The position numbers and the translations under genes are program-made. A DNA stretch of 64,000 bases, taken from assembly GCF_020520425.1 (NCBI RefSeq), contig NC_079487.1:107356141-107420140 (forward strand), read 5' to 3'. Source of the stretch: Spinacia oleracea (Eukaryota > Streptophyta > Magnoliopsida > Caryophyllales > Amaranthaceae). Positions 4,301 through 56,689 of the stretch are shown one piece after another; position 1 is the first letter of the stretch; each line of letters starts with the position of its first letter. The notes beneath the pieces were generated by a model. The model made no database searches and was not told the origin of the DNA. It saw only the letters and a program-made list of their open reading frames with translations.

Positions 4301-5929
4301 AAGATCTTGGAGCTTTTGGATTTGATTCATGTTTGTTTTCAAATGCCACAGATATCCATAACATAAGAGGCCTTATAGAATTCAGAAATTAGTCATTAAA
4401 GAGAACCAAGATCTACTCCTAAAAGTCCCAATGTATGTAGAGAATATTACTATTAAATGATGACTCATCAGTAACATCGTACACCTGCAGAATACCAATG
4501 GCTCCACGATAATAAGCTGAAATGACAAACTCGAAAAGTTATTTTTTCTGGCAACGAAACAAACTAGAAACAAAAACTAGCTCCTAACTTCTGTAGCTAA
4601 CATGTGGGCTTCAGACACCAGGGATCTACCTTTAATACATTTGATGTGACTAAAATCTAAAACCAAAGACCTAATAAATTACAATATTAACAATTTCTTT
4701 GGGGGCGTTATCTAGATTCTAGAGTTTGAAGAGCCGTAAGGTGGTTACTGCAATTACCACATGGTTCCCAAATTGCCTTGCCTGCTATAGACCTAATAAC
4801 ATAACCATAACTTCAGAGTGTAGAGGAGAAGAGGCCCAATAATTAATTTATGGAATTTTGGTAAAAACATAGAATTTGGGCTCATTGTTCAGCACACTCA
4901 AGACAGTCTTTGACCTCCTGCATTTCTTGTATGAAAGGAACTATCAGTATGTATGTCTGTGGTACCTTACGATGTACTCGTATTATTGACTACATTTGAA
5001 TGTGAGATATAAAAGAGAAAGAGAAGATGAAATCTAAGTAGTGTCACGTTGTTAGCAGGTTTTTAAAACCTCTGTTGTGAAATTCTATATTTGCACGATC
5101 AAGGGTATATACACTACTACTGATATGACATTTTATAGCGTTTCTTTAATAGCGTATATACACTACTACATAACACTTTTCAGGTTAGTTAAAAGGTTTC
5201 TACTATGTTCTGAGATTTAATTTGTTTATTATTAATTTGATCTGATTATAATTTTAGTTAAACTTAATGGTTTGTGATTTGGTTTCAATCTTATCTGATT
5301 CTGTGATTCTATGTTATTTTCTTTGACTGAGATATCTCTATTTTGGAGGCGCCTTGAGAGTACCAGAGGGTCAATACTCAGGTTTTGATTTTGGTTTTGT
5401 TATTTTCTTTTCAACTTGTTATGATTAATTGATTTCGTTTTATCTTTTCCTATTGATAGGCGACATGTATTGACATAATTTCGCTTGTCTTATCGTGGTC
5501 AGAAGCTACTAAATGACAATGAATATCTCATAAACATTCAGAGATTGGGATGGAATGAGGTATGTTGGCTCACGTACTCTTTAAACTCTACCTAGGTATT
5601 TGTGTTGCAAATGAGTTATGCTTGCTTACATACTCTTTAAATTCTAAGTGCTTTTACATTTGTATTACAACTAGTTAAGTTCTCTTACATACTACTTAAA
5701 CTCTGAGTGCCCCAAGCAGAAATATAATATACTCTCTGATATTGATTATTCACTTCCCTAACTTGCATTTTACAGTTCCAAGTCATTATAATACTTTTTA
5801 GTTGTCTACATTGTGCTCTTTATGCTCTTTGTTTTCCAGAGTATTTTCCCAGTATCTCCCTGCATTGTGTTTTTGTTTTTGATTCCCTTCACTCTTATTC
5901 CCGAAGAAGTTTTGTTATTTGTGACTGCG

Positions 5930-6505
5930 TTTCTTTGAAGGGTTTTGACTAGAGAATTGTTTGTAAAATTAGAATAACAAGTATGTGAAGTTTGAACCTC
6001 TTATGCTGCTTTCTAGATGAATTATTTTTAGACTTCAGGAGATTCGATGCCTTTTGAAACTGACAAACTGTGCATGACAGTGAAGCTTGTATTTAAAGGA
6101 GGGAAGAATTTGTTTTGTTGCTTTCTTTATCACAGTTTCTTTGAAGGGTTTTGACTAGAGAATTGTTTGTAAAATTAGAATAACAAGTCTGTGAAGTTTG
6201 AACCTCTTATGCTGCGTTTCTTTGAAGGGTTTTGACTAGAGAATTGTTTGTAAAATTAGAATAACAAGTCTGTGAAGTTTGAACCTCTTATGCTGCGTTT
6301 CTTTGAAGGGTTTTGACTAGAGAATTGTTTGTAAAATTAGAATAACAAGTCTGTGAAGTTTGAACCTCTTATGCTGCTTTCTAGATGAATTATTTTTAGA
6401 CTTCAGGAGATTCGATGCCTTTTGAAACTGACAAACTGTGCATGACAGTGAAGCTTGTATTTAAAGGAGGGAAGATTTTTTTTTGTTGCTTTCTTTATCA
6501 CAGTT
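5930..6505 (+). repeat. Compound tandem repeat inside the CACTA element (81 bp and 206 bp units)
   Basis: Seen: the string TTTCTTTGAAGGGTTTTGAC begins at 5930, 6136, 6217 and 6298. The last two spacings are 81 bp and the copies are nearly identical. The first and last copies carry an extra tail (GATGAATTATTTTTAGACTT... to CTTTATCACAGTT), making a ~206 bp unit. The order is long, short, short, long, which suggests unequal exchange within one array. A separate ~48 bp unit is duplicated at about 6905-7000. Confidence 0.9.
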
Positions 6506-6633
6506 AGCATTTGGAATACCTTCTGGAAATTGCATCTTACTCTTGTCGACTTGCCTGCAGGGAGTTCTTCATGTCAATCTACTCACTCTATACGCAAATT
6601 TTAACACTATTGATCATTCTATTAACAACTTGA

Positions 6634-6837
6634 ATGGATTGTTGTGAAAAGATTTTCTCAGTTCATCCAGAAATACTATTATTAAGTAAACTACAGATCC
6701 TTGACCTGTCAGCTAACAAACAATCTGGGCCTCTTTTTTTTTCTTTTTTTTTTGAGGCCATAACTGCTAAATCCTATACTAGTCTCCAAACTCTGAATCT
6801 TTCCATGAACCTGTTTGGCTTGTGGGTCCCTAACTGA
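6634..6837 (+). pseudogene. Captured leucine-rich-repeat fragment in the CACTA element
   Basis: Seen: the frame contains LLLSKLQILDLSANKQSG, a T-rich interruption, then YTSLQTLNLSMNLFG. Known: LxxLxxLxLSxNxxxG is the repeat of plant extracellular LRR receptor-like proteins and kinases. Two repeats survive, separated by about 20 residues that do not fit the 24-residue period. There is no signal peptide, transmembrane segment or kinase. Inference: a piece of a host LRR receptor gene picked up by the CACTA element; whether it is transcribed cannot be seen. Confidence 0.6.
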
Positions 6838-26164: not shown

Positions 26165-26720
26165 TCGACCCCGGTGTCAGAAGCTGACCCGACTCCGAAA
26201 AACCATCTGTTTCGAACTGTAATCGAACTGGTTTGATCCGAAAAGTTCAGGACCGAAACCCGACCTGTAACCGATTTGACTTTATCCGACACCCGTTTCA
26301 CCCGATCTGAACTCCACCTGTAACCATTTTTGATCCGACCCAAACTCCACCTGTCACCGGATAGACTCCACCCAAACTCCACCCGACACCGATTTGACCC
26401 GACATAAACTTCACCGAAAACCAATTTGACCCGGCAAATATCTGATTTGACCCGATTTGGTTTGACCCGAACTGTTGTCTAACCGACACCGATTTGACCC
26501 GGCCTAAACTCCACCCGACATCGGTTTGACCCGACCTGAACTTCACCCGGCACCGATTTGATCCGTAAAATATCTGATTTGACCCGATTTGTTTGAATCG
26601 AATTGTTGTCTAACCGACACCGGTTTAACCCAACCTAAACTCCACCCCACCGATTTCACCCGACAAATATCTGGTTTCACCCGATTTGACCCGAACCATT
26701 ATCTAATCGACTTTTTTTTA
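26165..26720. repeat. Degenerate GACCCGA-type simple repeat
   Basis: Seen: about 550 bases built from variants of CACCGATTTGACCCGACCTA and AACTCCACCCGA. Higher-order units of about 140 bases are visible (compare ATTTGACCCGATTTGGTTTG near 26450 with ATTTGACCCGATTTGTTTGA near 26577). In this window, well-bounded hAT MITEs carry the same sort of interior (42840-43496, 54456-56689). This block is probably such an element or a hAT subterminal region; I could not define its ends. Confidence 0.75.
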
Positions 26721-38590: not shown

Positions 38591-38893
38591 TATTTTTTTT
38601 CCAACTTTTTTTTTCAAAAGCTTTAAATCCTAATTTCTTTAATAATCACTTAATAATTTGTGTAAATAGAAATTTATTAGCAATATAGTCGAAATTGCTT
38701 GAAAATATTAGTAATTAATGTTGAATAATATTCTGGAGTATAATAATTTAGTTATGAATAATCTTCTGATTGGATATCACATCGGATCTTCAAATTGGAT
38801 ATCATATTGTTTTGGTTCAACGATATCAATTTAAGTGTTATTTTTTATCTGGAAATGAGATCGATTCCGCAGTACGTAATTATTAATATATAG

Positions 38894-38904
38894 ATAGGTA
38901 TCCA
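38894..38904 (+). repeat. Left target-site duplication of the MULE
   Basis: ATAGGTATCCA, identical to 53917-53927. The 11-base match flanks the whole two-gene unit and is of the length Mutator insertion makes. A single pair of 11 bp matches at the expected places is suggestive but could be chance. Confidence 0.7.
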
Positions 38905-41900
38905 CCTAGCTATATATGCATATGCAACAATACAACGTCGTTTCATCATTTAATTGGCACGCGCGAAGCACATGCTTCTTACCAGCAACACGTATAAAAC
39001 TGCTCCTGACGTCATTGGAAGAGAATTCGACATTTTCTCTCTCCTCAACATCTCACCATTTTCTCTCTCATCAAACCTCCCACTCTCTCTCATCAAACCG
39101 CCCACTCTCTCACTTCAAACCGCCGATTTCTCTCTATAAAACCTCGATTTGCAGTTCAAAAGCGCAATTCAGTGACAAAACTGAACATCGCGGCGGTTTC
39201 GGAAAATTTGAAACCCTAAAAATGGATGTTCGTGAGGAAGTGAAGCTCAGTAGAACAAAAATTACATTTAAAAGAGGAAAAACGCAGAAGTAAGTATAAT
39301 ATCTGCATTTTTGTTTATAATGTACATAATTTTTCGCGTTTTCCAGATTTTAATTTGATTTTTGTTTATAATGTACATAATTTTTCGCATTTGCCAGAAA
39401 AAAGAACAATCGAGTGGAATCGAGTACTGCGGATGCTGTATTGTAAGTGAATTTAAGTGTTCTAAACATTTTTAACTCAATTTAGAAGTTGTATGTGAAT
39501 TCACGTTTTGAAATTTATCATGTTCAAAATTTAGGACTAAATGTTCATTATCTTTTACTATATGATCTGCATCGTCCCTGTCTAAATATTATCATAGTTC
39601 TAGAGCGTGTGGAAACCTGAAATATTCATGTTCACAATATGAAACAACATGTTCAAAATGTGAAACATCATGTTCAAATAGGTTATAATATAATTTTTGG
39701 TTTGATTAGGTGTTCAAATATCCATGTTCAAAATATGAAACAACATGTTCAAAATGTGAAACAAAATGTTCAAATAGTCAAATAACTAGTTCAAATAGGA
39801 TATAATTTTTTTTGAAATATTTATGTTCAAAATGTGAACATAATGTTCATAATGTTCAGATTAGCTGTTGAAATATTCATGTTCAAAATGTGAAACATAA
39901 TGTTCAAAATGTCAAATATTTTGTTCGAATAGGATATAATAAAAAATTTGGTTAGATTAGCTGTTGAATATTCATGTTCAAAATATGAAACAACATGTTC
40001 AAAATGTAAAACAACATGATCAAATTGTGAAATAACATGTTTATATATGTTATAATTTTTTTTTGGTTTGATTTGTCTGTGCAGAAATCCAAAACCATTG
40101 AATTTTGTGAAACCAGTGCCAGCAAGGGAATCAGATTCTGAAATGTGAGTGAAATTTTATGTTAGAAACTGTTTGGTAGTTGATCATTATAAGAAGCTAA
40201 TAGTTATATTTGCAGCCTCAGGATGATCGATGAAGATCGAAGAACATATTCCATTAGCAATCCTAAAGAAAAGAAAGCAACAAGAACCTACAACAACTTC
40301 AAAACTGGTGGATCCAATACTTCTGCAAAACATAAATGAATCATATGCGGAGGAAACTGTGAATGATGCGTATGTAACTGTTTATGTTCACTTCTATAAG
40401 TAGAATAATACATATTATCAAATGTTGTTGTGGTTAGTGGTGCTGTTGTTGGGGTTGTTGCTGCTTTTTTGATTTCATGCATTTTATATGTTCATTTTCT
40501 AATTCATCATGTTCAATATATTATCAGTAATGTTCAAATGATGTTTAAAATTGTTCAGTATGCTATTCACTATTGTTTAGGTTGATGTTCAAATATTTAA
40601 CGAATAATGTTCAACATACAAATAATCATGTTCAAAACGGTGAACTTTTTTAAAATATGAATGCAGGAATTTTGTTGCTATATGGATTATAATTATAAAA
40701 TGTTGTTGTTTATATAGGAACCCTCAACCAAAGAATCAGAAAAAGTCCAAAATCACATTCACATTAAAACCTTCAGCTGAAAAAATTATTGATCCAGCTC
40801 AAGCTGCTCCGGTTCAAGTTGCTCCGGTTCAACCTGCTCCGGTTCAAGCTCCGGTTCAAGATGCTCCAGTTCAAGCTGCTCCGGTTCAGGAGGAAGATAT
40901 TACAAATGAAAGGTATCAAAATAGATTTGTTCAACTAATCCTGATAGTTTAAAATCAAAAAAACATGCTAATAATATAATATACTTTTTGCAGGCTAGAC
41001 AATGACGATGGTATGCATGTTGCTAGGACAAGGATTCTGCGTAATGTATTGAAGTTTTCTAAACATAAAAAGCATATTCAGCATAACCATCGCAGGATAA
41101 CTATGTCCCCTGGAAGGTAATAATTTGATCAGTTATTACGTTCTGAATAAATATTCTATTGTTGTTGTCTTTAAATTTGTGGTGTTCAGTTTCTAAAATA
41201 TCATGTTCAACTTTTAAAATATCATGTTCATATTTTAAAAACAATTGATCAATTTTAACTTATGGTATTAAATAATTGTAAGTTGAACACAGGTTATTAT
41301 CAGTTTTTTAGAGTTCATGTTCAACATTTTAATTATAATGTTCAACTTATCAGAAACCTATGTTCAACTTACAACAACCTATGTTCAACTTACAACAACC
41401 TATGTTCAACTTCCAACAACCTATGTTCAACTTCCGAAAACCAATGTTCAATTTCTTAAGTTTAATATTTATATTCACCATATGTGCTGTAGGAATGAAA
41501 TGGCAAGTCCAGAAACAATAGCATCCAAAATAAAGAAGTAGCAACAAAAGAAAAAAGGTGATTTAGAAAGGGAGGCTGCTATAGCTGAAGAAAAAGAAGC
41601 CGAAAGAAAACAAGAAGCTGAGAGGTTGATAAAGGAAGCTGAAAGGAAGAAGAAAGAGGAAGCGGAGAGGAAGAAAAAAGAGGAAGATGAGAGGTTGATA
41701 ATAGAAGCTAAGAAGAAGAAGAAAGAGGAAGATGAGAGGTTGATAATGGAAGCTAAGAAGAAGAAAGAGGAAGCTGAGAGGAAAAAGAAAGAGGAAGCTG
41801 AGATTAAGAAGGAGGAAGCTGAAAGGAAAAAAGCTGAAAAACAGGAAGCTGATAAAAGAGAAAGGAAGCTGCCGAAGCTAAAAAATTAGCTGCGAAAGAG

Positions 41901-42839
41901 GAAGCTCAAAGAAAGAAATTAGCTGTAAAAGAGTTAGCTGAAAGAAAGAAGGTCGAGAGGGAAGCGGCAAAATTGGCAGCAGAAAAAAAGAAAGCTGAAT
42001 TGGCAGCCGAAAATAAGAAGGCTGAATTGGAGGTTGCAAGGAAAGAGAAGGAGAGAGAAAAGCACGCTGAAGATGAAGGTGAACCACCTTTGAAGAGAAA
42101 GCATATTGCGAATAGAAAGCAAAAGGAGAAAGAGGTGATGAATTTCTCTTTCGAAAGGAGAATGACAAGAAATCAGACATCTGGAAATGATATGGAGCCT
42201 AAGGAAAATGAAAGGGAGGAAAGTGAGAATGGGATCTCATCTGAAGATGATGATGAAGATGATGAGGATGTCAACATTACACAGTTGTCGGGATGTCAAG
42301 ATGATGAAGATGATGAAAACGACGATGACAACATCCCGTCAAAGAAAAGACATGTTCAAAAGACCGAAAAAACAATTGTTAAAGCTGGCAAGGAGGAGGA
42401 TCAGAAGAAAAAGGAAGTGAAAAAGACAGGGGTGAGGGCTAATCATACAGCTTTCATGGAATGGGTCCCTAAACTAACCGATAATCTAAGAAACGCTATT
42501 CAAGAGATCGGGTTAGGACAATTGCTCACTGTTAATCTGCCCCAAAATGAGCAGGTAACTTTAATTTTTAATGTTCAAATTCTTAATTTTGCCATGTTCA
42601 ATATATAAAGAATTATGTTCAACACTATAATGTTTAAAAATTTTAAAAAGTAAAAAACAGTTGTTTAGGTTGATGTTCATATTCTTAATGTAGCATGTTC
42701 AATAAATAAAGAATGATGTTCAAAACTTATCCCAAGTTTTAAATATGAATGCAGGAATTTTGTTATTGGCTTCTTAATCAATATGAAGAAAATTCTTCAA
42801 CACTGTACTTACCGCGTGGTAACACAATCCGATTGGAGG

Positions 42840-43496
42840 TAGGGATGGCAATCACATTCGAATCCGAACCGAGTCCGACCCGATCCAAAGTAAAAAATCC
42901 GATCCGAATCCGAGAAAAAAAAGTCCGAATCCGAATCCGATTAAAAACATCCGAATCCGAATGGATATGGATAGGATATGGAGTCTTCAGAGACTCTGAT
43001 CCGACTCCGACCCGAGTCCGAGTCCAAATCCGACTCGAATTTTTTTCAAAGTGTATTATTTTTCGTACATAACTTTTTTTAAAAGGAAGTTCCCAATTTA
43101 ATCTAATATATTTAATTAAAGCGCATACATTTGTAATTTATTAATTTATTAGAAACTCATTAGATTTTGGTAAATGAGAAATATGATTTCTAATTTATTT
43201 TAAAATTAAGAAATACAAGTTCTATGTAAGTAAAGTTAACGTATGATTCGGATTTGGATATGGATATGGATATGGATTTGAATTTGGATATTATATGGAT
43301 GCAATTTTGGAGTCCAAATTTTAAATGGATTTGGATATGGCTATGGATATGGATATGGATATGGATATGGATGCAATTTTGGAGTCCGAATTTTAAATGG
43401 ATATGGATATGGATGCAATTTTAGAGTCCGAATTTTAAATGGATTGAATTTGGAGTTTACTACATCCGACCCGAATCCGATCCATTGCCATACCTA
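42840..43496. mobile_element. hAT-type MITE inside an exon of the ULP1-like gene, 657 bp
   Basis: Seen: ends TAGGGATGGCAAT and ATTGCCATACCTA are perfect 13 bp inverted repeats, flanked by the 8 bp duplication ATTGGAGG (42832-42839 and 43497-43504). The 8 bp length defines hAT. The interior is made of ATCCGAATCCGA and GATATGGATATGG simple repeats, with no coding. The exon reads NTIRLEV before and EDVHIVYGLH after it, so the site was coding sequence before insertion. Confidence 0.95.
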
Positions 43497-46400
43497 ATTG
43501 GAGGTGGAGGATGTACACATTGTGTACGGTCTTCATATGGATGGTCGCAGAATCATTGAGTCCAAGTTTGACACTAATACCGAGGAGTACAAAAATTTTC
43601 TCACAGAATGGAGAAACACCTGGAATATCAGAACTGGAGCCCCTAGTGTTTCAAAGATAATCAAGCGATACACATCAGAAGTTGAATTCATAGGCTGTGA
43701 ACCGAATGATAACTTCATCACTGACTTCTTAGTGGTTGCGGTGAATATGTTCATGAAGTCCAGTCAAAGTACACAATCAAACTACAGATTTCTGCTATCC
43801 ATGATGGATCGTAATGAGATCAGAAATTTGGATTGGTGTGAATATGTCCTATCGAGTTTGGGTGCTACAGTGGAAGACTGGAAAATGAACAAGACAAGAT
43901 TTTTCAAAGGACCATTGCCTTTCTTACAGGTATTCAACATTACCTGAAATTCAATGTTAAATACTTGAAATTCAACTTTTAATTCATCATGTTCAATTGT
44001 TTTTATGTTCAATGCCTTGCATGTTGTTTTTCATACTTTTTTAATTCAATGTTCAATACATGATGATCAACTTTTAATGCATCATGTTCAATTAATTTAT
44101 GTTCAATGATTCCATGTTATGTTTCACACTCATGTGCAACTTTTAATTCAATATGTTCAACTTTTAATGCATCATGTTCATATTCTTAATGTAGCATGTT
44201 CAACTTTCAATGATTCAATATTATGTTTTATAATTTTAATTCAATATGTTCAACTTTTAATGCATCATGTGCAACTTTTAATACAATATGTTCAACTTTA
44301 AATACATTATGCTGAATATACAGTCATGTTTGATTTAACTCATTGTCATTAACAGGAACAAATATTCAATTTTTAACTAGTTATGTTCAAATGTTTTTTA
44401 CTTTTAATACGTTTTTTAATTTTAATGCATAGCTATTATACTTCGACCGCATCATGAAGAAAAGGGTAGAACAACCAAGAACATTTCCCCTAATATCAAG
44501 TTGGACAAAGAAAATGGTCAAAGATAGAATAATAGAGGAAAGGAAAGGGTATGGGCTTGACCGAATTCTTGACAGAATACAATTGCCAGAACCAGAAGTG
44601 CCTCAAGAAAATGTGCAACATAATGTGCAAGGAGAAGCTGTGCAACAACTTGTGCAACAACCTGTGCAACAACATGTGCAAGGAGAAGCACATAATGTTC
44701 AACAACAAGAAAACCCGAAGGTAAATATTGGATGTTAAACTCGATAAATATTGGATGTTCATATTTAAAATATTTACATGATTATTTTTTTACAGGATTT
44801 CATGATGGACTTCATCATGTTAATGAACAATTTAGGTGCTAACTTGTCTATGTTGAGCACAAAACTGAAAAGGGCTCAAGAACTCTTCCCGTACAACAAT
44901 TTGGTGAAGAATGTTGAAGAGTTCATGGGGAAAATGGCAAGAGAGCCATCAATTCTTAGTCAAGAAGAAGAATTTTATGGAACTGATGAATTCTTGATGG
45001 CAGTAGCAGAAATAGAAAGGAATATTGCACAAGGAGTTAAAAGGGAGAACAAAAGGATTGCAAATGAGGAAGAAGAATACGTCCAGTTTAATCCAAATCG
45101 CCCCTTTAGCCTAGGAATTGGCCTAACCCCAGAAATACCCAATGATAAGGATGGAGCATCAACTTCAAAATCCCCGGGACAAAATGAAGACGAGGACCTG
45201 AACCTCGATCTAAATCTGGGATCAAAACAAACTGCTGATCATGTTTTGGAAACGCCACGGACTGGGAATGTTAGGGATGGCACAACAGCTGTGGATGGTG
45301 AACTAGTGGGGGCACCACAGACTGAGAATCTTCGGGAACACACAGCAGCAGTGGCTGGTGAACCAGTGGCTGCGGTTACCGATGTCACAGAAGGGTAGGA
45401 TTCAAGTGATATGAATTTGAATATGGAACACTGAATATTATAAAAATATGTAATTATTAAACAAATATTTTGAAGTTATGAATGATAAAATGGTTTTTGA
45501 TAAATGTTCAAATTTTACTGTCATATGTTCAAATCAAATATTTTGAAGTAATTAATTATATAATGGTTTTGTGTAAATGTTCAACTTTCACTGTTATATG
45601 TTCAACTTTTACTGTTATATGTTCAAATTACTATTATATGTTCACTGTTATATGTTTAATGTTCAAAATTCTTCTGGAAAATGTTTATATGTTCAATGCA
45701 GAATACCAGAGCCCCAAAAACGGCCTCAGAGGGAACTCCGAGACGTACCTGCTTGCTTCAAATTACCATTCATGGTCAAGTACAAAGATTTATTTAAGAC
45801 TGTGGAGAACATGAGAGCAATCATTATAGACTATGCGTTTGATGATGGAGACGACAAATACATAATTAAAATAACATTCATAATTAAAATAACATTCATT
45901 TTATTATTTTTATCTTTCATAACATCGTTGAATCAATATTGTAGGGAAGTATTATATTTTGATGGAGAAAACTCAATAGACAGAGATGAGATGCAAACAT
46001 TGGGTCGTGATGGATACATAGACAGCGCTATCGTTGATACATGGTCTGCAATCCTAAACGGGAAATGCTCCAAGACTAAGTTCTACTTCTCCACAGTCCC
46101 CTTTGTAAGTATAATACTTGTGGTGTATAGTTCTGGATATTATTATTGATTTCAATGTGCAGAATTTTATGTCTTATGTTCAGAATGGTATCCCTTATGT
46201 TCATATTGTTATGTCTTATGTTCAGAAAGTGAAAATCAATGTTCATAGAATGTTCTGAATTTTATGTATTATGTTCAGAAGGTTATGTCTTATGTTCATA
46301 TATGTTAAATGCAGTTGATCATCAACACCTTCAAAATCAGTCCAGAAACAGATAGCTGGGACACAAGGCTTCATAAATTCAACCACAGATTGACAACTGA

Positions 46401-46614
46401 AATGAGGAATGCTAGTGTTCATAGCCTTAAGACGTATAAGGAGATATATTTTCCGGTATGTGTAAGTACGCATTTTTATATGTTGTGCGTTAACTTCTAT
46501 GATCGTTCAATAGATACTATAGACAACCGGAAGCTGCCACAACATGTCAAGGTGGGCACAAAATACGAAGGACACCCAACAAAAATGGTAAGTTAACATC
46601 CAATGTTCATTAAA

Positions 46615-46707
<93 letters not shown>
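46615..46707. repeat. (TA)n microsatellite in an intron of the ULP1-like gene
   Basis: About 90 bases of pure TA repeat starting 30 bases after the splice donor that follows ..HPTKM. Confidence 0.97.
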
Positions 46708-46709
<2 letters not shown>

Positions 46710-47549
46710 TGAAAATACTTACCTGCTCTTAAAAAATCGAAAATATAGGTCGAAGCTCTAGAATATTTTTAGAAATATAATGATTACAAGGTAGGACAAG
46801 GATTGTCAAAGTATAAAGAGGAACTGATTAAGATGAAATGGCGAAGCAATGAGGATGCAATAAACTGTGGAGTACACCTATTGAAACATATGGAAACATA
46901 CACAGCAGACCATGAATTAGAATGGAATCCTGGGTTAAAAGCAAACAATGTAAGTCTTTTGTATAATGTTCATTTTTTGAAAGCGAATGTTCAATATATT
47001 ATTATAAATATTCAATATTTTCTTTAATTTTCTTCTGGGTGGTTGCAGCTTGATCAGATAAGGAAATTAAGGATGCATTATTGTGCTGAAATTCTATTGG
47101 ACAATGGAAACAGACATAAGTACCGGATCCAGACTGCTGCTAAAAGAAAAAACGAGGAGAACTGGATGCAAAGCGGAAGGTAGCAGAAGTCAGGTGGATT
47201 GCCTTGGAATTATAGTTCGTTGTTTGTTTATAGTTTATGTAGATTTGATATGACATTCTAATTGACATGTTTAGTGAAATGTTTGGTTTGAAACAATTTT
47301 CGAATTAAGTACATATAGTTAAAGGCTATTTGTGGGTTATATTTTCATTTATTCAAATTCGCATTTAAAATGTTCAATGATAAACACCAAATGTTCAAAT
47401 AAAACATGATATAGTAACAATGCTGTAAGAAACATCAAAAATTATCTTAAACCAATGTTTAACATAAATCGAAAAATGAGTTAATCAAAGGTATCACATA
47501 TGAAATTCAAAAAATAGAAAATATCGGAAATTACATATCACGCAAATTA

Positions 47550-50500
47550 TTAATCAAAATTGGCCATAATCTCATCATAAAGCGATACACGAGCAGCAGG
47601 AGAATTCAATTCCGTGTTAGCAGAAATTGGAGCGCATGCCGAATATATTCCTTTCCTTTTCTTAGATTGAGAACCAAAACCACCCTACATTACCAAAAAC
47701 AAAAAATATTAGAAAACAATGTTCAATATATGACTAATAATGTTCATAAGTAAGACATATATGTTCAAATACCTGGACAAAATATTTCAAAGAGTCTACA
47801 ACATCTGGTATTGCTTTCTTACCACAAATATCCTCCTACATATGCATCAAATTCGTATATTCAATTAATCAAATGTAATATTCAAACTATGAAGAACAAT
47901 GTTCATAAATAAGATAATACCTGAACAGAATCAGGTACTACACTCTTGCCAGAAATACCTTTCTACACATTATAAAGAAATATATTTAGGCATATTCTCA
48001 AACTATTTTTTTATTCATATTCACACACTAACCTCAAGGGATGAACCTAATACACGCAACTCTGAGCCAGAACTTGGATGAGAATAAAGGAGAGGATTTC
48101 CCAAAGCATCAAACTCCTAAAAAATTTGATGTTCAACTTTTCAGAAACAATGTTCAACTTTTAAAACAACATGTACAACATAGAAATTCATGTAAAAAAA
48201 ATAACCTGAACAGAAGCTTGGGCTTTAGCTTTAACATTTTCAGCATGTTTTTCAGCACGTTTCCTCCAAGCCTTCTTTTTGTTACACTCCTTCTCAACAA
48301 TACCCTTAGGCCTCTCGTTTGTCTCACCCTTTTTCCTACGCTTTTTGGATCTTTAATGGATGGACCATCATTTCCATCGTGACCATGAACATCAATGCCC
48401 TCAACCGGCTCTGAAAAATCAATAGCACCCCTAACACTCTCAACCTTTTGCCTTAACAAATCAAATGCGGTATCAATTTCTACTCTAGCTTCAAGGAAAT
48501 CTTGACAAGATGTAACCAAATGAACAAACTTCCTCATAGTTTGAAATCTCCAAACAGAAGCGGGAACAACGTTTTCTTTGGAGGATTGTTCATCCACAAC
48601 AGCGCTGCACATAGCTGCTTTCGTCCACCTCTTCAAAATGTATTGCTCAGGTAACATAGCAACACAATGTATACTATATATACGAAGAATATGAGAACAC
48701 AATAAACCCACTTCAGAAAAATGCTTGCATGTACAATTAGACTCAAATGTAATTTTGTTAAACGTAACCTCATGCCTTATCAAATCAGCTGTAGCAGGCT
48801 TCCATAACAGATAAACAACTTTTTCTGCATCTTCAAATGTACGTTCCTGATTCAATGAAATTCCTCTCAAAAACTGCTCCTCAAACTTCACATATAGATA
48901 ACCAGTGTACACCTTCCTTGCATGCACAAGTATACTAACATTGACAGAAGCCATATGCCGATTGCCCCTCAATACACGATAATCATGGTGATTTTCTTTG
49001 CTTCGCCATGCAGATATAACATCTAAAAACAAGTGATAAAAATCACATAAACCATATGTCTTCCTCAACCTATCTTGTAACGCCCCGACCTCTAATTCAA
49101 GTATTAAAGCATAATTAGCAGCGGAATTAACCTAATTTGGTCGGGACATTACCTGCCGTAATTCTCTCTTGGAAATTACAAGGCAACACCATACATACGC
49201 CATAAAAACCTCCAATTTAATATAATAATCCTTTATGTATTCTCAAAATAAAAGTACATAACTTACTAAAAGTCTTTAATTAAACTATTATAACTTTAAG
49301 CATAAACTAGGTGAATATTATAAAAGTGAAATTTCCTCGCAACTACGCGTTTCCATCGATTCCCGCAGTACCTAAAACGGAAAACAAAATGGTGAGCCGA
49401 AGACTCAGTAACGACTACCCTAGCAACGTAAATTCATTTCAACTCATTTTATTTAATAACACAGGGAGAATAGAATCAGTAACACGTTTAATAAAACATC
49501 ATAATAAATTCATTCATAAACTTTTCAATGAAAACGTCATTCATAAACTTTGCAATTTAACATGCTAGTTGTCGGCAAGTACGAACCGTGAAGGAATTCT
49601 CCACTGGGCCTGGGCCCATAAGAGCCTGGGCTCATCGTAACATGGGGCCTGGGCCCTGAGCCTGGGCTCATAAACCATGGGAGCCTGGGCTCGTAATCCA
49701 TGGGTGGACAGGTGTCCGTGGTGCATGCATGACCGGTAGATAGGAAGATGATAGTTTATATACCGCCAAACAAACCAGGTCTTTCACTTTCATTTATCAT
49801 GTTGTATGTAATTTTTACCAAGCCTTGGCTTGTATTTCAGTTGAAATAACATAACTTATAATCATAAAACATCATTTAGATCCTGGGATCCATAAAACAT
49901 CATTTCATTCAACGCATCATATAAACATCATTTTATGAGAAAACTCAATCAAATCATATTATAAAGAATAATTCAACAAATCATAATTCATTCCCACAAT
50001 CCATAAAGCATGTCAAAACATTTAATTCATAAATCCAATCATAACGTCATAATTTCATAATACATTTATAAAGGGATTGCGGGTACTAGCAATAGCCGTT
50101 ACCTTAACCGTCGTTTTATACTTCCCGTCTGATGGATCGTTCTTCCTGAGCTCCAAGTTCGATTTCTTTTAGAATATTAAATTACAGAATTAATACTACA
50201 ACGATGAATAATCTAAAATCAATATATTAAAAATAATAAATTTTATAAGTAATGAAATTATAATTAACGAATTTTAATAAAAAGTATAATTTCGAATTTT
50301 AATGAAAACATTATTATTAAACGAAATTCTAATCAAAATATATTTATATATTTCATAAGTCGATTTACATCAAAATATTATATAAATTCGGTTTTTGATA
50401 AATCAAGCTAGTAATTTATTTTATTAAAATCGATAATAAAACCTGAAAATATTAAACAATTTATTAGTTAGTAATTATATCATAAAAGTTTATTAAAACA

Positions 50501-53500
50501 TGAAAATTAATAGATTACAAAATCAGAAATAGAAAATTAGTTTCTTACCAAAAGCCCACTTTAGAAGGGCCCAATTAGTGGTGGGTTTTGAGAAGAGTAA
50601 AACCAAGAACCAAATATTGGTTTTGGTTTTCTGGAAAGAAACGCACGAACAAGGGGGGGGGGGGGGTGCAAAGCAGAGGAGCAACGAAGGGCGGAAGGGG
50701 AGGAGGAGAGGAGAGGAGGGAGGGAGGCCGATGGCTGGGAGGTGCAGTGCCGGAGCTGCGGCGCTGATGGTGGTTGTTTTGCGGTGGAAGAACGGCGGGG
50801 GAGAGGGAGGGGAGCACAAAACAGGGGAAATAACAAGGGGGAGTTTGTGGGGTGCTTGGGGTGGTTCTGGGAGGAGGCAGCGGTGGCTCGCCGAGAACTT
50901 TGGGACGGCGAAGGTTGGTGGTGGCGAGGGTGGTGTTGCGAGCAGGACAAGACAAAAGAAACAGGGGAGGCAGGGGTATGCGAGGGAGGAGAGAGCAGGG
51001 GAGACGGTGGGGCGTGGTGCGAGCGGTGGTTGAAGGTGGCTGGGGCGGTGGTCGAGCAGTGGTGGTCGAGGTGGTAATCGGTGGTGGCTATGGTGGTGGT
51101 TTGAATCACAGACAACAAAGATAATGAGATTTTCAGTTTTGGTAATTGATTTTGGTTTGGGGAAATTGGTGCAATTATGTCTGATTATAGGGTGAAGAAG
51201 AGTGAAGAAGAAGGGAATTTGCTTGGGGTCCAAGGAGTGAATTTGGACAGAATTGAGGGAAGGAGGGATGGAAGAAAATCCTTCACTCCATTTGTACGTG
51301 GAGAGCAAGGAGAAGAGGTGAAATGAGATTTTGGCTCTTCTAAGGGCATTTTGGTCATTTTCCAAAGTTAGGCAAAATTCAGAAAATCAATTTCTGTTTT
51401 TAGAAAATTAATTAGAATAGAAATGTTTAATTAAAACTAAGTCTCAAAATAATCTTTTATAAAAGTGTCGTTAACGAAAAATAAATTTCGTTTTCGAATA
51501 AAATAAGAACGTTATTAAATTATGAAAAATCCGAAAATAATTAAGATTTAAAAAGATCGTTTAAGCTCGTAAATATAAAAATTAAATTATAAAATCCGAA
51601 AAGTAAAACGTGTAACAAATCTTAAAATTTAAATAAAACTTCGTTAACTAAAATAAAGTTCGATATTAGGGTTTAAAACGATTTAAGCTAAATAAAAATA
51701 ATTAAGCATAATTAATCGTGTTTTAAAAACTCGGGGTATTACATATCTTTAATAGAATTATTAGTCGATTCACTCCTTTGAGAAGACAAAGCTCCACCAG
51801 AGAAAGAATCCTTAGAATACGCACGACACCAATGCTCTCTAATCACATACAAATTATTCAACCATACATTCGTCTCACACTTATAGTTCTTAATGAATCT
51901 GAAAGTTAAAATGAATATGAATATTACATGTTATGAAATGAACAATACTTATAAAGAATTGAACATAAGAATAAAAGGAAATATACCTTGGCCAATAATG
52001 TTCAAACTCAGCAACAGTATCACAGTACTTCAGAAGATAACTAAACAACTCAGTAAAACCTTTCATAGCTCTCTGCGTAGCAATATTCTTCTTTGAATTC
52101 TCTCCAAGATGTCATGTACACAAACGGTGACTAGCACCCGGAAACACATCCCTAATAGCAGCAGCAATGGCAGGAGTTTGATCTGTCATTATAGTTTGGG
52201 GTATTCCACCACCCATTGATCGCAAAAAAGATTCAAACAACCAAATAAATGAAGGAATACGCTTATTAACCAGAAACCCCAAACCCCAAACCAAAAACAA
52301 CATTATTGCAATGATGATTCATTCCAACAAATGGTGCACATATCATATCATACCGATTTGTCCGGTATGTCGTATCAAACACCAATAAATCACCAAAATA
52401 TTCGTAATCCCTTTTCATCCTTCCATCCCTCCAAAAGAAACTAATTAAATGTCCATGTTCATCTAACTCAAAATCATAATAAAAATCACTCTCAGAAGAT
52501 TGTCTTTGAGCAAAGTACCTAATTAACTGATTATTGTCTTTACCATCAAGTTTCATTGCCTTTTCAGCAGCCAAAGCGTTGGATGCATCAACAGTAATAA
52601 ACCCTAAATTAGGAGATCCTCCGACTTCTTTTCTCATTGCACGAAGCACATCAGACACTCTACAACCACTGGCTTTCATTGCACTAAGATACTTGAGCTG
52701 CTCCCCTGTAATATCTCTTTGAGACCTAAGCAAGTATCTCTTGTCAACGGGAATCATATGATGATTGTGAGTCATGTTATGCCTCACCACAGTCCAAAAA
52801 CCATCATTGGTAATAGAAAACTGAATAAAAGCAGTACAACCTGTACGCAATTTAGACCTCTCATACTTCCTCAATGTTTCCTTCTTAACATCTTTAAAGC
52901 CAGAATTAGAACAAAGAAATCTGCGCATAATCCACAAACTAGTTCTACGACTAGTCCTAATTAATCCCTTACGAATACTAAAACCCTTCCTAAATGCATA
53001 ATCATTATACATTTCATAAGCTTCATCATCCCTCCTAACTTCTTTTAACATTAATTCTGATGCAGATGCTTCTTCAACCACTACTACTTCTTTAGACACT
53101 GTCAAAAATAAAGGGTAAAGATGATGTTCAATTTAAAATGTACAATGTTCATATTAAAACAAAATGTTCATAATAACAAACTTCAATACATGTGTTGTAA
53201 TAAAAACGTAATAACCACAACAAAATATTCACAAAAGTGAATAAAAAAAATCATGTTCATAATATAAGTGAAATATGTTCAAAATCATCAAACACAAAAT
53301 CTGTGAATTTTCCAGAAAATAATAGAATCTGGAAAAATTCAAAATCATAAAAAACGATAAACAATTTTTAAAACTAAAACCTAATAAAACTATGAACGTA
53401 AAAAAAACAAATATAAGAATGATTTTATGCATAATTGAATCAAAAACCAGAATCGAAAACCAAAATTGCAATAACAGAATCGCAAAAAAACCAGAAAGTC

Positions 53501-53682
53501 AGAATCGCAAATTACAAAAACAAAAGAAAAGCTAAAAAACAATTGAATCAAAACTCACATTCCTTTATCAACGCAGAGAGAATTGAGGAATTATCAGCAT
53601 TAAATTCAGCAAGTATAGAATCAATGGAACTTTTGCTAGTAAAATCATGAACAGAGCTTAATGTAGAAACAGAAGAAGCCAT
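47550..53682 (-). pseudogene. FAR1/MULE-type transposase gene, disrupted
   Basis: Exons on -: 53682-53559 (MASSVSTLSSVHDF..), 53098-51987, 51898-48206 (split by a solo LTR at 51743-49076), 48116-48033, then short exons near 47964, 47836 and 47693-47550. Seen: FAR1-type DNA-binding domain (YEMYNDYAFRKGFSIRKG, GCTAFIQFSI, HNHHMIPVD), MULE catalytic domain (YFGDLLVFDTTYRTNRYDMI, FVGMNHHCNNVVFGLGF, TIMTDQTPAIAAAIRDVFPG, SHRLCT) and a C-terminal SWIM zinc finger (CTCKHFSEVGLLCSHILRI). This is the FHY3/FAR1 relationship: plant transcription factors descend from such transposases. Breaks seen: a 7 bp duplication (GTTTGGG) near 52275, a Trp-to-stop change after SHRLCT at ~52112, a one-base frame change near 48345, and the LTR insertion. 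The short tail exons read EFDALGNPLLYSHPSSG, KGISGKSVVPDSVQ, and a final KKRKGIYSACAP. Confidence 0.88.
49076..51743. mobile_element. Solo LTR, probably Ty3/Gypsy, 2,668 bp
   Basis: Seen: begins TGTAACGCCCCGACC and ends CTCGGGGTATTACA, and is flanked by the 5 bp duplication TATCT (49071-49075 and 51744-51748). Known: TGTAA(C/T)(A/G)CCCC..GGGG..TTACA ends are typical of long plant Gypsy (chromovirus) LTRs. No internal retroviral domains and no second LTR, so it is a solo LTR left by recombination. A GC-rich, purine-strand-biased block (50590-51120) gives long low-complexity frames on both strands that I do not consider genes. It interrupts the MULE transposase and so is younger than the MULE. 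Confidence 0.82.
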
Positions 53683-53927
53683 GGATGAGATTGGAATAAA
53701 TGAAATTCAAAGAGGAAAACTGCGTAAATGCGAGAAGGAAGAGGAGAGAGAAATTTTGAATTAATCAGCGTGATTACTAACCTAGATTTAAGCTTGATCA
53801 ATAAGCAAAAGGAAAGAGGGAAAATAGGAAAGAGGCGCTAAGGAAGGAAGGTTGGATTGGAAGGTAAGTAAGCAAAACGACGTCGTTTAACCTCCTATGC
53901 ACGCTGAGATGCGTGCATAGGTATCCA

Positions 53928-54133
53928 GCCAAAAATTTGGGCTCCAGTACGGGTACACTAATGTGGGACAAATCTTGCACAAAAATAACAAAGTGTAACC
54001 CATATGGTGCAACTTTGTTAGTAATCAAATCATTATAGAATTGGAGTGTATTACATTGATCAAATATATAGAGATTACAGTATGAGTCCTGATAGAATTA
54101 GGAACACTAATATGACTAGAAGTCTAATATACA
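53928..54133. other. Spacer between MULE and Copia fossil
   Basis: No coding region seen. The segment leads directly into the minus-strand Copia RNase H remnant and may be its adjoining non-coding end. Confidence 0.4.
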
Positions 54134-54455: not shown

Positions 54456-56689
54456 TAGGGGTGTGCATGGTCTGGTCCGGACCGGAATTTGGGCCGGAAC
54501 CGGACCGGAATTGGACCGGATCGGATCGGACCGAAGGATTCCGGTCCGGTCCTCGGTCCTTGGAAAACATCGATTCCGGTTTTCCGGTCCGGTCCGGGTA
54601 AAACCCGGAAAATTCCGGTCCGGACCGGTGACCCGGTTTATTTATAAAAATAATATATTATAGTCTAAAATTTAACATACGCTAATACTCTTATGTATAC
54701 GAACCTTTCTTGGCATTACAAAAATAAATAAAGTTGTTCTTTCATCTCCCTTGTTACTATTTGTGTACGAAGTACGTACTACTTCTTATTAAAACCAAGA
54801 TGTGTTATTCATCGAGTAATACTCGTTTTTGTTAGGTTATGATACATATGAACAACATAATCATGCGGAAAAACCTATATGTCAGGATTCAAATTAATTG
54901 CACATAATCAAATAATTAGTCTAGAATGCATACACTTTGTAGCGTGCCCTCCCTAGCAGCGCCGGAACCGAACAAGAACAAGTCTTTAGGACTCCAAGTG
55001 TCGTCCCTCCATAGAAAGTCCACAGCACGTGCGGATCCGCCTTAAGATTGACCAACTAGAATCGCCCTTAAGGTACTAGGAATTTTCTGCTAATATGGGC
55101 AACAATATGACTGAATTTTGCTCTCAAAATGTCACTCTGAATACTTAAAAAACTCGTCCATAAATTGTGAACCTAGGCACATATTTATAGGGGTATGGAA
55201 AGGAAATTGGAATCCTATTAGGATACTAATTAGCTTAATTAGAATTTTATTAAAACTCTTTTAAACTGATTCTATCTATTAGGATTAGGAATTAATCATT
55301 GAACGAATCCCATTAGATTTAGGATTTGTATCGAAAATAAACGCACACGAGCCACACCCTTGCGGGCGCTCAGCCCACGCAGGCCTTGCGGCCCACGCGT
55401 GCCTCACAGCCCACGCGAGCGCAGCTCGCTGCCCCATTGCGCGCGCGCCTTGAACTGCTGGGCCTGGCCTTGCGCTGGGCCTGGCGTGGCCTTGGTTGCG
55501 TTGTGTTGGCGTGCAGGCTTGCTGGACGCGGGCCTGGCTTCGTGCTGGGTCTTCGTCTAGCAAGTCTCGTCCGATGCTAATTCGTACGACGCGCTTCCGA
55601 TTAATTTCCCGATTCCGGAATTCATTTCCGATACGAACAATATTTAACATCTCCGATTCCAGAATTAATTTCCGTTTCGAACAAATATTTAATATTTTCG
55701 TTTCCGGAATTATTTTCCGATTCCAATAATATTTCCGATTCCGACAATATTTCCGTTTCCGGCAATATTTCAGATTCCGGCAATATTTCCATTTCCGATA
55801 ATATTTTCCGATACGTACCATGTTTCCGTTTCCGGCAACATCTACGAATTGGATAATATTTATATTTCCGATACGATCCATATTTCCGTTTTCGGAAATA
55901 TCATCGTTTCCGGAGTATTCATTGTTTGCCTTTGACGATCTCAGCTCCCACTGAAACCAAGATCCGTCGATTCCGAATATCCATAGATGGAGTATTTAAT
56001 GCCATTAAATACTTGATCCGTTTACATACTATTTGTGTGACCCTACGGGTTCAGTCAAGAGTAAGCTGTGGATTAATATCATTAATTCCACTTGAACTGA
56101 AGCGGCCTCTAGCTAGGCATTCAGCTCACTTGATCTCACTGAATTATTAACTTGTTAATTAATACTGAACCGCATTTATTAGACTTAACATTAAATGCAT
56201 ACTTGGACCAAGGACATTATTTACTTCAGTTTTTTTTCATTTGGTATTTATGCAATGATATTGATGGTGGGTTGTTGATATGCAGATGTTGAAGCTCTTT
56301 CTTTTCACTTTTCTTGTTTAAATTCATTACTTTCTTTTGGATGCGCTACTTAAGTATCACTAATTAATAAATTCAACTTTTAAATTTATATGACAAACCT
56401 TCAGATATACTTTTATTTGAAATTATTTAGTGACTAAAAGATTAATTTATATTCCAGGTTGTACATCATACCAATTAAAAATCGTCATAAAAAGGGCAAA
56501 AGTTGCAAGTTATACTCGCAAATGCCAAAATAAATTATAAAACAGGTCCAAACCGGTCCAGACCTGGACCGGACCTGAAAAATCCGGTTTTGGACGGGAC
56601 CGGACCGAATGATTCCAGTCCGGTCCTCGGTCCAAGAAAATTAAAAATTCCGGTCTACCGTTCCGGGTTTGGACCTGTGCACACCCCGA
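54456..56689. mobile_element. hAT-type element with a solo LTR inside, 2,234 bp
   Basis: Seen: the left end TAGGGGTGTGCATGGTC and right end GGACCTGTGCACACCCCGA are inverted repeats. The 8 bp flanks TCTGCATC (54448-54455) and ACTGCATC (56690-56697) agree at 7 of 8 positions, as expected for an old hAT insertion. Subterminal regions (54470-54640, 56540-56680) are GGACCGGACCGG-type simple sequence. No transposase. Subtracting the inserted LTR leaves ~830 bp. Confidence 0.85.
54830..56228. mobile_element. Solo LTR, 1,399 bp (LTR retrotransposon, likely Copia)
   Basis: Seen: starts TGTTAGGTTATGATACATAT and ends GGACATTATTTACTTCA, flanked by the 5 bp duplication GTTTT on both sides (54825-54829, 56229-56233). 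There is no internal coding region. A GC-rich middle (55340-55560) and a block of TTTCCGATTCCG-like repeats (55600-55900) are present. The sequence is of a type I associate with Caryophyllales LTRs; the Copia assignment is from memory and not shown by any domain. Confidence 0.82.

Follow-up and report, generated by a model that had tools for sequence, protein, structure and literature searches.

Among described plant elements, the closest counterparts of the locus reported here are the Arabidopsis VANDALs. The target arrays of VANC proteins are dense, same-orientation tandem motifs in introns, intergenic DNA and terminal non-coding DNA, and the VANC proteins themselves contain peptide repeats in variable regions (cited passages of PMC5735166). 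A second group of relatives consists of the KI-MULEs, or Kaonashi elements (Hoen 2006, by way of the review PMC13317346), which carry an ULP1-like gene (KIU) on a non-TIR MULE in reverse orientation to the transposase. According to the cited parts of that review, VANDALs that carry KIU recognise motifs present in elements of their own kind and bring about the hypomethylation of those elements (PMC13317346). Jittery-like MULEs of grapevine and melon combine a Jittery-like transposase with an ULP1 sequence downstream, and motif arrays and anti-silencing are not described in the cited passages of that report (PMC2528002). Finally, Jittery sub-group 36 is characterised by an N-terminal FAR1 and a C-terminal SWIM domain, while half of VANDAL group 45 has PMD and/or DUF domains (cited parts of PMC6446971).

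We analysed a window (the whole stretch of spinach DNA, 64,000 nucleotides) and compared one element in it with these systems. Like VANDAL21 (Hiun) and VANDAL6 with VANC21 and VANC6, it is a TIR-less MULE with a second gene that has repeat-rich variable regions (PMC5735166, PMC10398659, as far as the cited passages go). As in the accounts cited for these VANDALs, dense same-orientation tandem motif arrays fill its non-coding DNA and that of its copies, the motif differs between related families, and the arrays expand and contract between copies. Unlike VANDAL21 and VANDAL6, the spinach element has a FAR1-type transposase and a TGTTCA-type motif, and no VANB gene was seen in it. YAGTATTAY, AGTTGTCC and AGTTGTAC do not occur within it. 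Unlike the VANC family, its predicted second protein showed neither DUF1985 nor DUF287 in the pieces scanned and is PMD-like instead, a feature also seen in part of VANDAL group 45.

The element shares with KI-MULEs the ULP1-like gene opposite the transposase, but differs from them, as described in the cited parts of PMC13317346, in its FAR1-type transposase and its PMD-like domain; two genes have been recognised in it, against three in KI-MULEs. It shares the FAR1 and SWIM arrangement of sub-group 36, whose members have target duplications of 8 bp or of unstated length and TIRs that either measure 39-292 bp or are absent (PMC6446971, cited parts); in contrast, the spinach family has 10-bp target duplications and no TIR.

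A dispersed TIR-less element with two convergent genes

The first-pass annotation had proposed a TIR-less MULE with two convergent multi-exon genes. This interpretation held except for the borders, which it placed at 38905 and 53916; homology among copies extends past them to 38877-53941. The features are:

38877..53941, unstranded: whole element, TIR-less MULE, 15,065 bp with two later insertions included, delimited by the ends of other copies
38867..38876, unstranded: left target-site duplication, decayed, CCGCAGTACG, 8/10 identical to the right one
53942..53951, unstranded: right target-site duplication, decayed, CTCCAGTACG
38894..38904, + strand: left subterminal 11-bp direct repeat, ATAGGTATCCA
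53917..53927, + strand: right subterminal 11-bp direct repeat, ATAGGTATCCA, overlapping the palindrome CCTATGCACGctgagatgCGTGCATAGG (53894-53921)
39222..47183, + strand: ULP1-like gene, a candidate for an anti-silencing factor of VANC type, with about 15 exons as read from the sequence
40719..40910, + strand: exon with APVQ peptide repeats, read from translation
41493..42555, + strand: coiled-coil and acidic exon, with a stop at 41539 and a shift of frame in the interval 41856-41889
42754..43929, + strand: plant-mobile-domain-like (PMD) exon, split by the hAT-like insertion; PMD E 5.8e-7 on piece 43498-43947, below the Pfam cut-off
44433..44719, + strand: exon with VQQ peptide repeats
45702..47183, + strand: ULP1 (Peptidase C48) domain exons, with a stop at 46770; C48 E 4.7e-5
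48194..53682, - strand: transposase gene with FAR1, MULE and SWIM domains by Pfam, converging on the ULP1-like gene; its limits are approximate
42840..43496, unstranded: hAT-like insertion, ends TAGGGATGGCAAT/ATTGCCATACCTA, 8-bp duplication ATTGGAGG
49076..51743, unstranded: LTR-like insertion, TG...CA ends, 5-bp duplication TATCT

The left end TAATTATTAATAT was found in 18 of the 30 left-end loci (the window being one of the 30), and the flanks diverge beyond it. The other copies have TAATTATTAATATATAG as their common left end and AAAAATTTGGG as their right end, and their right ends extend to ...ATTTGGG. At locus L045, the right end has ATACCTATGCA in place of the sequence at the right subterminal repeat. 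The element's two ends, TAATTATTAAT... and ...AAATTTGGG, differ and form no terminal inverted repeat. Exact 10-bp target duplications flank all four other copies in which both ends were read, within the 8-11 bp range given for MULEs in the cited part of PMC6446971.

The 11-bp repeat that had been thought to flank the element is present at 38894 and 53917. We rejected it as a target duplication, since both of its occurrences are internal to the element, close to the termini. Homology in other copies runs beyond it before the flanks differ, and the element therefore spans 38877-53941. By itself the repeat is weak evidence, because shared repeats of at least 11 bp also turned up in 37/500 pairs of end zones after shuffling, and the word's genome occurrences (104+111) are no higher than those of a control word (125+172). 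We conclude that a dispersed family of TIR-less MULEs, with 10-bp target duplications and two convergent genes, has one of its copies at 38877-53941.

Pfam searches on pieces recovered the three transposase domains named in the first-pass annotation: FAR1 (E 4.5e-20 in the window, 7.4e-21 in a second copy), MULE in two halves (E 1e-5, just below the cut-off, and 5.3e-11; 4e-12 in the second copy) and SWIM (E 5.6e-4, just above the cut-off). The transposase domain places the element in the Mutator superfamily, and the N-terminal FAR1 and C-terminal SWIM domains are those of a Jittery/FAR1-type MULE. No MuDR-type DNA-binding domain was reported by Pfam in the pieces of two copies, where the N-terminal domain is FAR1. 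Judged by its domains, the predicted transposase is thus not of the MuDR/VANA type that marks VANDALs.

The ULP1-like identity of the other gene was confirmed by a Peptidase_C48 match to the spliced exons (E 4.7e-5, 23.8 bits versus a Pfam cut-off of 20.7), and the coiled coil, acidic region and APVQ and VQQ repeats noted earlier are readable in translation. The PMD-like match fell under the Pfam cut-off in both copies scanned. In the pieces scanned, DUF1985 gave no Pfam match at E up to 10; DUF287 was not found. A sequence search of the PDB with the ULP domain returned no matches at E up to 10, and a single-sequence structure model of the PMD-like exon was set aside (pLDDT 40.7). The expected positions of His, Asp and Cys are kept in two copies, as read by eye from the alignment. 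Gln usually precedes the catalytic Cys in the ULP1-type motif; the residue here is Asn.

A comparison of two decayed copies gave dN/dS values of about 0.56 for the two transposase pieces and 0.2 to 0.9 for pieces of the ULP gene, with the PMD piece at about 1.0; this suggests modest constraint on the coding pieces. A pooled ULP-gene value of 0.57 was set aside; it included the out-of-frame PMD piece and the poorly aligned acidic exon. Two coding genes were recognised in the window, and likewise two in the copy at C1:63.56 Mb. The copy in the window is damaged, as had been noted, by the two stops, the frame change and both insertions. The hAT-like insertion is missing from the copy at C1:63.56 Mb. 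The LTR-like insertion, in which no reverse transcriptase frame was seen, is probably a solo LTR.

ATGTTCA arrays in the non-coding DNA

The main feature of the element, missed by the first-pass annotation, is a series of ATGTTCA arrays with a 21-bp period:

39520..40001, + strand: 15 cores, mostly 21 bp apart
40384..40634, + strand: 7 cores
41203..41450, + strand: 9 cores
42571..42722, + strand: 6 cores
43989..44389, + strand: 11 cores
45504..45695, + strand: 8 cores
46176..46298, + strand: 6 cores
46966..48156, + strand: scattered cores, several of them paired at 21 bp, reaching from the final ULP introns as far as the transposase gene's end
53124..53281, + strand, opposite to the strand of the gene (-): 5 cores in transposase intron 1

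With exon limits set by hand, the 5.4 kb of non-coding element DNA contained 79 forward and 3 reverse copies of ATGTTCA, against a mean of 2.06 and a maximum of 6 in 300 shuffles, while the exons contained 5 in 6.3 kb and the two later inserts, together 3.3 kb, none. The rest of the window, beyond the element, has 10 in 49 kb (0.2 per kb). Neighbouring cores are spaced exactly 21 bp apart, or two helical turns, in 33 of 83 cases; apart from exact multiples of 21, helical phasing of the cores is weak (at 10.5 bp, R is 0.16 for 187 distances). Spacer identity averaged 0.52 in 33 adjacent pairs (down to 0.14), compared with 0.36 for spacers more than 1 kb apart and 0.29 at random, and some neighbouring units are near-identical. 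A test on isolated cores had too small a sample to be of use, as its filter left 6 cores, 4 of them in exons.

The ATGTTCA word evolves two to three times slower than the spacers between copies. Substitutions affected 111/2331 core versus 609/4472 spacer positions (2590/22593 in other non-coding DNA), with the core below the spacer in all 26 comparisons, covering 25 copies. A global alignment of 12 copies gave 445/10504 core and 2024/20773 spacer substitutions, and 127 of 132 ordered pairs had the lower rate in the core. Some spacer positions of the repeat unit are no more divergent than those of the core. The commonest indels of at least 10 bp in the global alignment measure 21-22 bp, and the arrays change copy number between element copies: the same intron has 15 cores at C1:63.56 Mb and 1 in the window.

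ULP loci and word variants across the genome

A convergent FAR1-transposase match lay within 20 kb of 66 of the 118 ULP-exon matches, where 0.135 were expected, and non-convergent geometries numbered 0 within that distance. The pairing of the two genes thus recurs elsewhere, and accidental neighbourhood is ruled out.

At least four distinct 21/22-bp pairs of one 6-mer were present in 34 of 42 ULP loci (39 distinct places), compared with 1/15 window chunks (2 at any spacing) and 0/8 other loci; the remaining 8/42 lack a clear 21/22-bp array. Fewer than three pairs of one word at 21 bp were found in 6 of the 30 left-end loci. Divergent ULP loci in the same genome have the word variants TGTTCAT, TGTTCTTT and TGTTCTAA at 21 or 22 bp, and these sort by ULP family. 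Arrays occur also at loci about 50% apart in ULP sequence. The array is reversed relative to the ULP gene at L082, L076, L077 and L080, and L081 has 33 forward and 15 reverse TGTTC sites. No FAR1 match lay within 60 kb of L076, L077, L080 or L082, with 135 of 1,290 FAR1 candidates scored.

The targets of VANC21 and VANC6 have also diverged in word, in parallel to the families here. Sequence, density and helical periodicity are reportedly the determinants in such systems, and eudicot VANC systems with Ulp1 are said to exist (an abstract by Sasaki, 2022, EMBO J 41:e110070). Unlike KI-MULEs and eudicot VANC systems, as far as the sources cited describe them, the spinach elements have words of a TGTTC family that splits into a 21-bp and a 22-bp branch.

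A candidate anti-silencing system and its alternatives

By analogy with VANC, we consider it likely that the ULP1-like gene encodes an anti-silencing factor acting through the phased arrays. The protein would bind an array on a single helical face and would thereby be confined to its own element family, and the bound factor would strip silencing marks from the element. With these marks removed, the transposase and the ULP1-like factor would both be expressed. In related ULP-bearing families of this genome, both the word and the phase (21 or 22 bp) may have drifted apart, so that each factor would serve its own family.

The arrays might instead be binding sites of the FAR1-domain transposase or the transpososome, serving transposition rather than anti-silencing. 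The genes are linked, so arrays could serve the transposase; as the transposase and ULP genes usually move as a pair, word variants follow the families of both. However, this role is unlikely, as the cores sit in introns and between the genes and come no closer than 643 bp to the left terminus or about 660 bp to the right one. The ends bear other words: the subterminal repeat, and a single CACGCGC at 38958, which we take to be an FHY3/FAR1 site, though it is near the left end in only 13/29 other loci. TGTTC arrays at five loci without a FAR1 match (L076, L077, L080, L082 and L084) are a weak argument in the same direction, because of the share of candidates scored. The first-pass annotation saw in the protein a SUMO-protease-like enzyme that perhaps targets host or transposase; this view, under which the arrays would be incidental, can point to the C48 domain and the retained His, Asp and Cys. 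We consider it improbable, as it leaves the arrays in need of explanation, and Asn in place of Gln and the empty PDB search also speak against it. We infer from the arrays a DNA-bound anti-silencing factor rather than a change in SUMOylation; any SUMOylation-changing action of the protein is probably secondary.

Use of the arrays by a host factor, as a transcription factor, splicing or nucleosome-positioning signal, appears very unlikely. Helical phasing would suit any protein array or nucleosome, and many arrays are intronic, but an RNA signal is disfavoured because the arrays keep their + orientation inside the - strand transposase gene, and because the word differs from family to family, a co-evolving partner encoded by the element itself is favoured. 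The least probable reading is that the arrays are functionless intron minisatellites grown by slippage. Their tandem structure, the 21-bp indels and the near-identical units in places fit such an origin, yet word, orientation and period stay constant among unrelated spacers. The slower evolution of the word, the few or no cores in exons and later inserts, and the arrays at highly divergent ULP loci likewise argue against it. Against an anti-silencing role stand the modest coding constraint, the sub-threshold PMD match and lack of a DUF1985 hit, the linkage of the two genes, the spacer positions that are as conserved as the core, the reversed arrays at some loci, four of which had no FAR1 match, the mixed orientations at L081 and the loci without a clear array.

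More tentatively, an anti-silencing module of an ULP1-type protein and a helically phased array may have joined a FAR1/Jittery-type lineage, with at least three families in this genome and a specificity code of TGTTC core, 3' flank and phase (21 or 22 bp). If the anti-silencing role is confirmed, a mechanism tested in Arabidopsis VANDALs, as described in the sources cited above, would carry over to FAR1-type elements of another eudicot. The families would then supply a ready-made set of proteins and their target words at 21- or 22-bp phase, on which the reading of sequence and spacing by such factors could be tested directly. Confirmed factors could also give orthogonal tools for sequence-specific demethylation. 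The system suggests a reason why ULP1-like genes persist on plant MULEs.

Borders and coding content of the element

We searched the genome (894,210,420 bases in 242 contigs, with the window placed at C1:107.36 Mb) with the left end of the element; with 40 of 183 candidates scored, this gave at least 42 matches, distributed across the six long contigs. The left-end homology extends 28 bp leftward across the 11-bp direct repeat ATAGGTATCCA, as far as TAATTATTAATAT, which is exact in 18 of the 30 left-end loci, the window itself being one. The right ends of other copies run on to AAAAATTTGGG, with ACATTTGGG in locus L041. Exact 10-bp target duplications were found in all four of the other copies read at both ends.

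Target duplications of other copies (each exact, 10 bp)
C1:111.34 Mb copy: AAGAACGTCC
C1:63.56 Mb copy: TCCGGGTATC
C2:37.26-37.29 Mb copy: CGAAATTCCT (ends 32 kb apart, paired through their matching duplication)
C4:168.17 Mb copy: TTAATTCTAG

These shared ends and duplications place the window element at 38877-53941, replacing the 38905-53916 of the first-pass annotation, which had taken ATAGGTATCCA as the boundary. This word is a subterminal direct repeat inside the element. It is present at four of five right ends, while the fifth has ATACCTATGCA instead, and since 37 of 500 shuffled end-zone pairs share a repeat as long, the word alone says little. The element's own target duplication has decayed, with 8 of 10 positions matching.

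Features in and around the element (window positions)
26286-26665: tandem array outside the element (CCGACACCGATTTGACC-type)
38877-53941: two-gene MULE; ULP1-like gene (plus strand), convergent with the FAR1-type transposase gene (minus strand)
38935-38943: ACGTCGTTT, close to the left end
42840-43496: 657-bp hAT-like insert holding GGATAT-type repeats; 8-bp duplication ATTGGAGG
46618-46706: AT microsatellite inside a ULP-gene intron
49076-51743: 2,668-bp LTR-like insert; TG...CA ends, 5-bp duplication TATCT
53875-53888: palindromic word AAACGACGTCGTTT, close to the right end
53894-53921: palindrome CCTATGCACGctgagatgCGTGCATAGG in the right subterminal region, which overlaps the direct repeat
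55609-55873: tandem array outside the element (TTTCCGATTCCGAC-type)

Two distant copies, L027 and L029, have a palindrome like CCTATGCACGctgagatgCGTGCATAGG at their left ends. Locus L039 (C1:111338400-111341900) is a 2.9-kb deletion copy that retains an exact 10-bp duplication, both ends and some arrays, and is a candidate non-autonomous derivative.

Pfam matches bear out the proposed gene pair. The minus strand encodes FAR1 (E 4.5e-20), MULE in two halves (E 1e-5, just below the cut-off, and 5.3e-11) and SWIM (E 5.6e-4) domains, and the spliced exons of the plus-strand gene encode Peptidase C48 (E 4.7e-5, above the cut-off). An N-terminal exon of the ULP gene is plant mobile domain (PMD)-like, at E 5.8e-7 (below the cut-off) and, in a second copy, 0.0023. 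The coiled coil, acidic runs and APVQ and VQQ peptide repeats described for the ULP1-like gene are readable in the sequence. By eye, candidate protease residues His, Asp and Cys are retained in both copies read, but Asn occupies the position where Gln is usual in the ULP1 protease motif.

The copy is damaged, as had been claimed, both genes being split by later inserts. The hAT-like insert splits the PMD-like exon and the LTR-like insert splits the transposase gene; the latter, in which no reverse transcriptase frame was seen, is probably a solo LTR. Neither appears in alignments to the C1:63.56 Mb and C4:168.17 Mb copies. The C1:63.56 Mb copy (L042/L043) has another insert between its two genes, at element positions of about 7.9-12 kb, with a 693-aa frame resembling, by eye, a non-LTR reverse transcriptase.

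Phased ATGTTCA arrays and constraint on the core

The main feature that the first-pass annotation overlooked is a set of ATGTTCA arrays. The element contains 84 forward and 4 reverse copies of this core word, and the remaining 48.9 kb of the window 10 and 2. These copies occupy introns, including intron 1 of the transposase gene on the minus strand, and the intergenic stretch; almost all are in plus-strand orientation. With exon limits drawn by hand, the non-coding part (5.4 kb) holds 79 forward and 3 reverse copies (300 shuffles: mean 2.06, maximum 6) and the exons (6.3 kb) hold five; the two later inserts (3.3 kb) hold none. Neighbouring cores are exactly 21 bp apart in 33 of 83 cases. This distance corresponds to roughly two turns of the helix, which places such sites on one face of the DNA. 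As 21 bp is also seven codons, L042 intron arrays at element positions 4711-5230 and 6461-6739 read as open frames, which could mislead gene prediction.

The word is the same between introns and the spacers differ: mean spacer identity is 0.52 for 33 adjacent pairs and 0.36 for units separated by over 1 kb (random: 0.29). Against other copies, differences occur at 111 of 2,331 core, 609 of 4,472 spacer, 2,590 of 22,593 other non-coding and 1,627 of 15,440 exon positions. Core divergence was below spacer divergence in 26 of 26 comparisons, which are not independent because the copies are related (two of them, L021 and C63, represent one copy) and some of which have only 14 core sites. Since local alignment may favour matching cores, we also aligned 12 copies globally. 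Differences then numbered 445 of 10,504 for cores versus 2,024 of 20,773 for spacers, with the core below the spacer in 127 of 132 ordered pairs and certain spacer positions as little diverged as core positions. Array size in one intron varies between copies from 15 cores to 1 (16 and 2 in the clusters, which include one exonic core each), and the commonest indels of at least 10 bp are 21-22 bp long. From these alignments, we attribute the upkeep of the arrays to selection and not to slippage alone.

Co-travel of the two genes and divergence of array families

ULP-exon and FAR1-exon queries gave at least 118 and 137 genome matches (150 of 215 and 135 of 1,290 candidates scored). An opposite-strand FAR1 match lies within 20 kb downstream of 66 of the 118 ULP matches listed, some of which come several to an exon. 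In that range, a FAR1 match upstream or in the same orientation was seen for none of the 118; a single same-strand match lies within 60 kb, among those listed. Placing matches at random along the six long contigs gave 0.135 convergent pairs (maximum 1 in 200 runs). Accidental neighbourhood of the two genes, the refuting case named in the first-pass annotation, is rejected. Among the matches listed, the paired fraction is 16/19 at ULP identities of at least 60%, 36/46 at 41-59% and 14/53 at 40% or less. A FAR1 transposase group of roughly 38% identity in the genome is paired with no ULP match among those listed, and would be a useful control for any dependence of arrays on the ULP gene.

Each of the 30 left-end loci, among them the window itself (L009), has between 1 and 33 copies of forward ATGTTCA; the single copy in L033 is not above background. 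In 24 of the 30, some word forms three or more pairs at a 21-bp distance. Of 42 loci surrounding ULP exons (39 places, many of them near-identical copies), 34 had four or more different pairs of a single 6-mer at a 21- or 22-bp distance. Among 15 control chunks of the window, two had such an array when every spacing was allowed (TTTCCG with an 18-bp step, AAGTTA with a 21-bp step); none of eight other loci had one. By the four-pair criterion, L057, L061, L077, L078, L079, L084, L086 and L087 have no 21/22-bp array, although L079 and L084 carry TGTTC at 22-bp steps.

Array words by family or locus
Family 1: ATGTTCAA, 21 bp
Second family: ATGTTCATT, 22 bp
L081: TGTTCTTTT, 21 bp; TGTTC 33 forward, 15 reverse
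L082: TGTTCTAA, 22 bp; strand opposite to the ULP gene
L076, L077, L080: ATGTTCTAA-like, 21 bp; strand opposite to the ULP gene

The families have diverged in sequence. In the ATGTTCATT family, identity is only about 52% for the ULP exon (a 46-aa piece) and about 63% for the transposase. ULP matches of the L081 group are about 33% identical and mostly paired with transposases 48-56% identical; L081's own nearest transposase match, among those listed, is 37 kb away and 50% identical. No listed FAR1 match lies within 60 kb of L076, L077, L080 or L082. Arrays thus accompany ULP exons also at loci lacking a listed FAR1 partner, and these four loci may belong to another transposon type.

A proposed VANC-type reading of the ULP1-like gene

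Passages of two papers on VANCs, the anti-silencing factors of Arabidopsis VANDAL elements, describe binding of YAGTATTAY by VANC21 in vivo and in vitro, a different word read by VANC6, and peptide repeats in VANC variable regions (PMC5735166; PMC10398659). On the sequence features compared, the window element closely parallels these systems, but it differs in transposase type and in the DUF1985 domain, for which Pfam gave no match at E up to 10 in the window pieces or a second copy. Because of this close parallel, we read the ULP1-like gene as a putative VANC-type anti-silencing factor. A review passage states that Ulp1-bearing VANC genes (KIU) act as these Arabidopsis VANCs do, citing Sasaki 2022 (PMC13317346).

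The presence of ULP1 on MULEs, Jittery-like ones included, was already known, according to part of one paper (PMC2528002), as is VANC anti-silencing. Neither phased target arrays in FAR1-type elements nor a division into families of 21-bp and 22-bp period was found in the open PMC papers searched. Sasaki 2022, whose abstract reportedly names helical periodicity, may cover part of this novelty. If the ULP1-like gene is of VANC type, its protein would coat the arrays of its own family and, bound there, undo silencing, and factor and target arrays would co-evolve.
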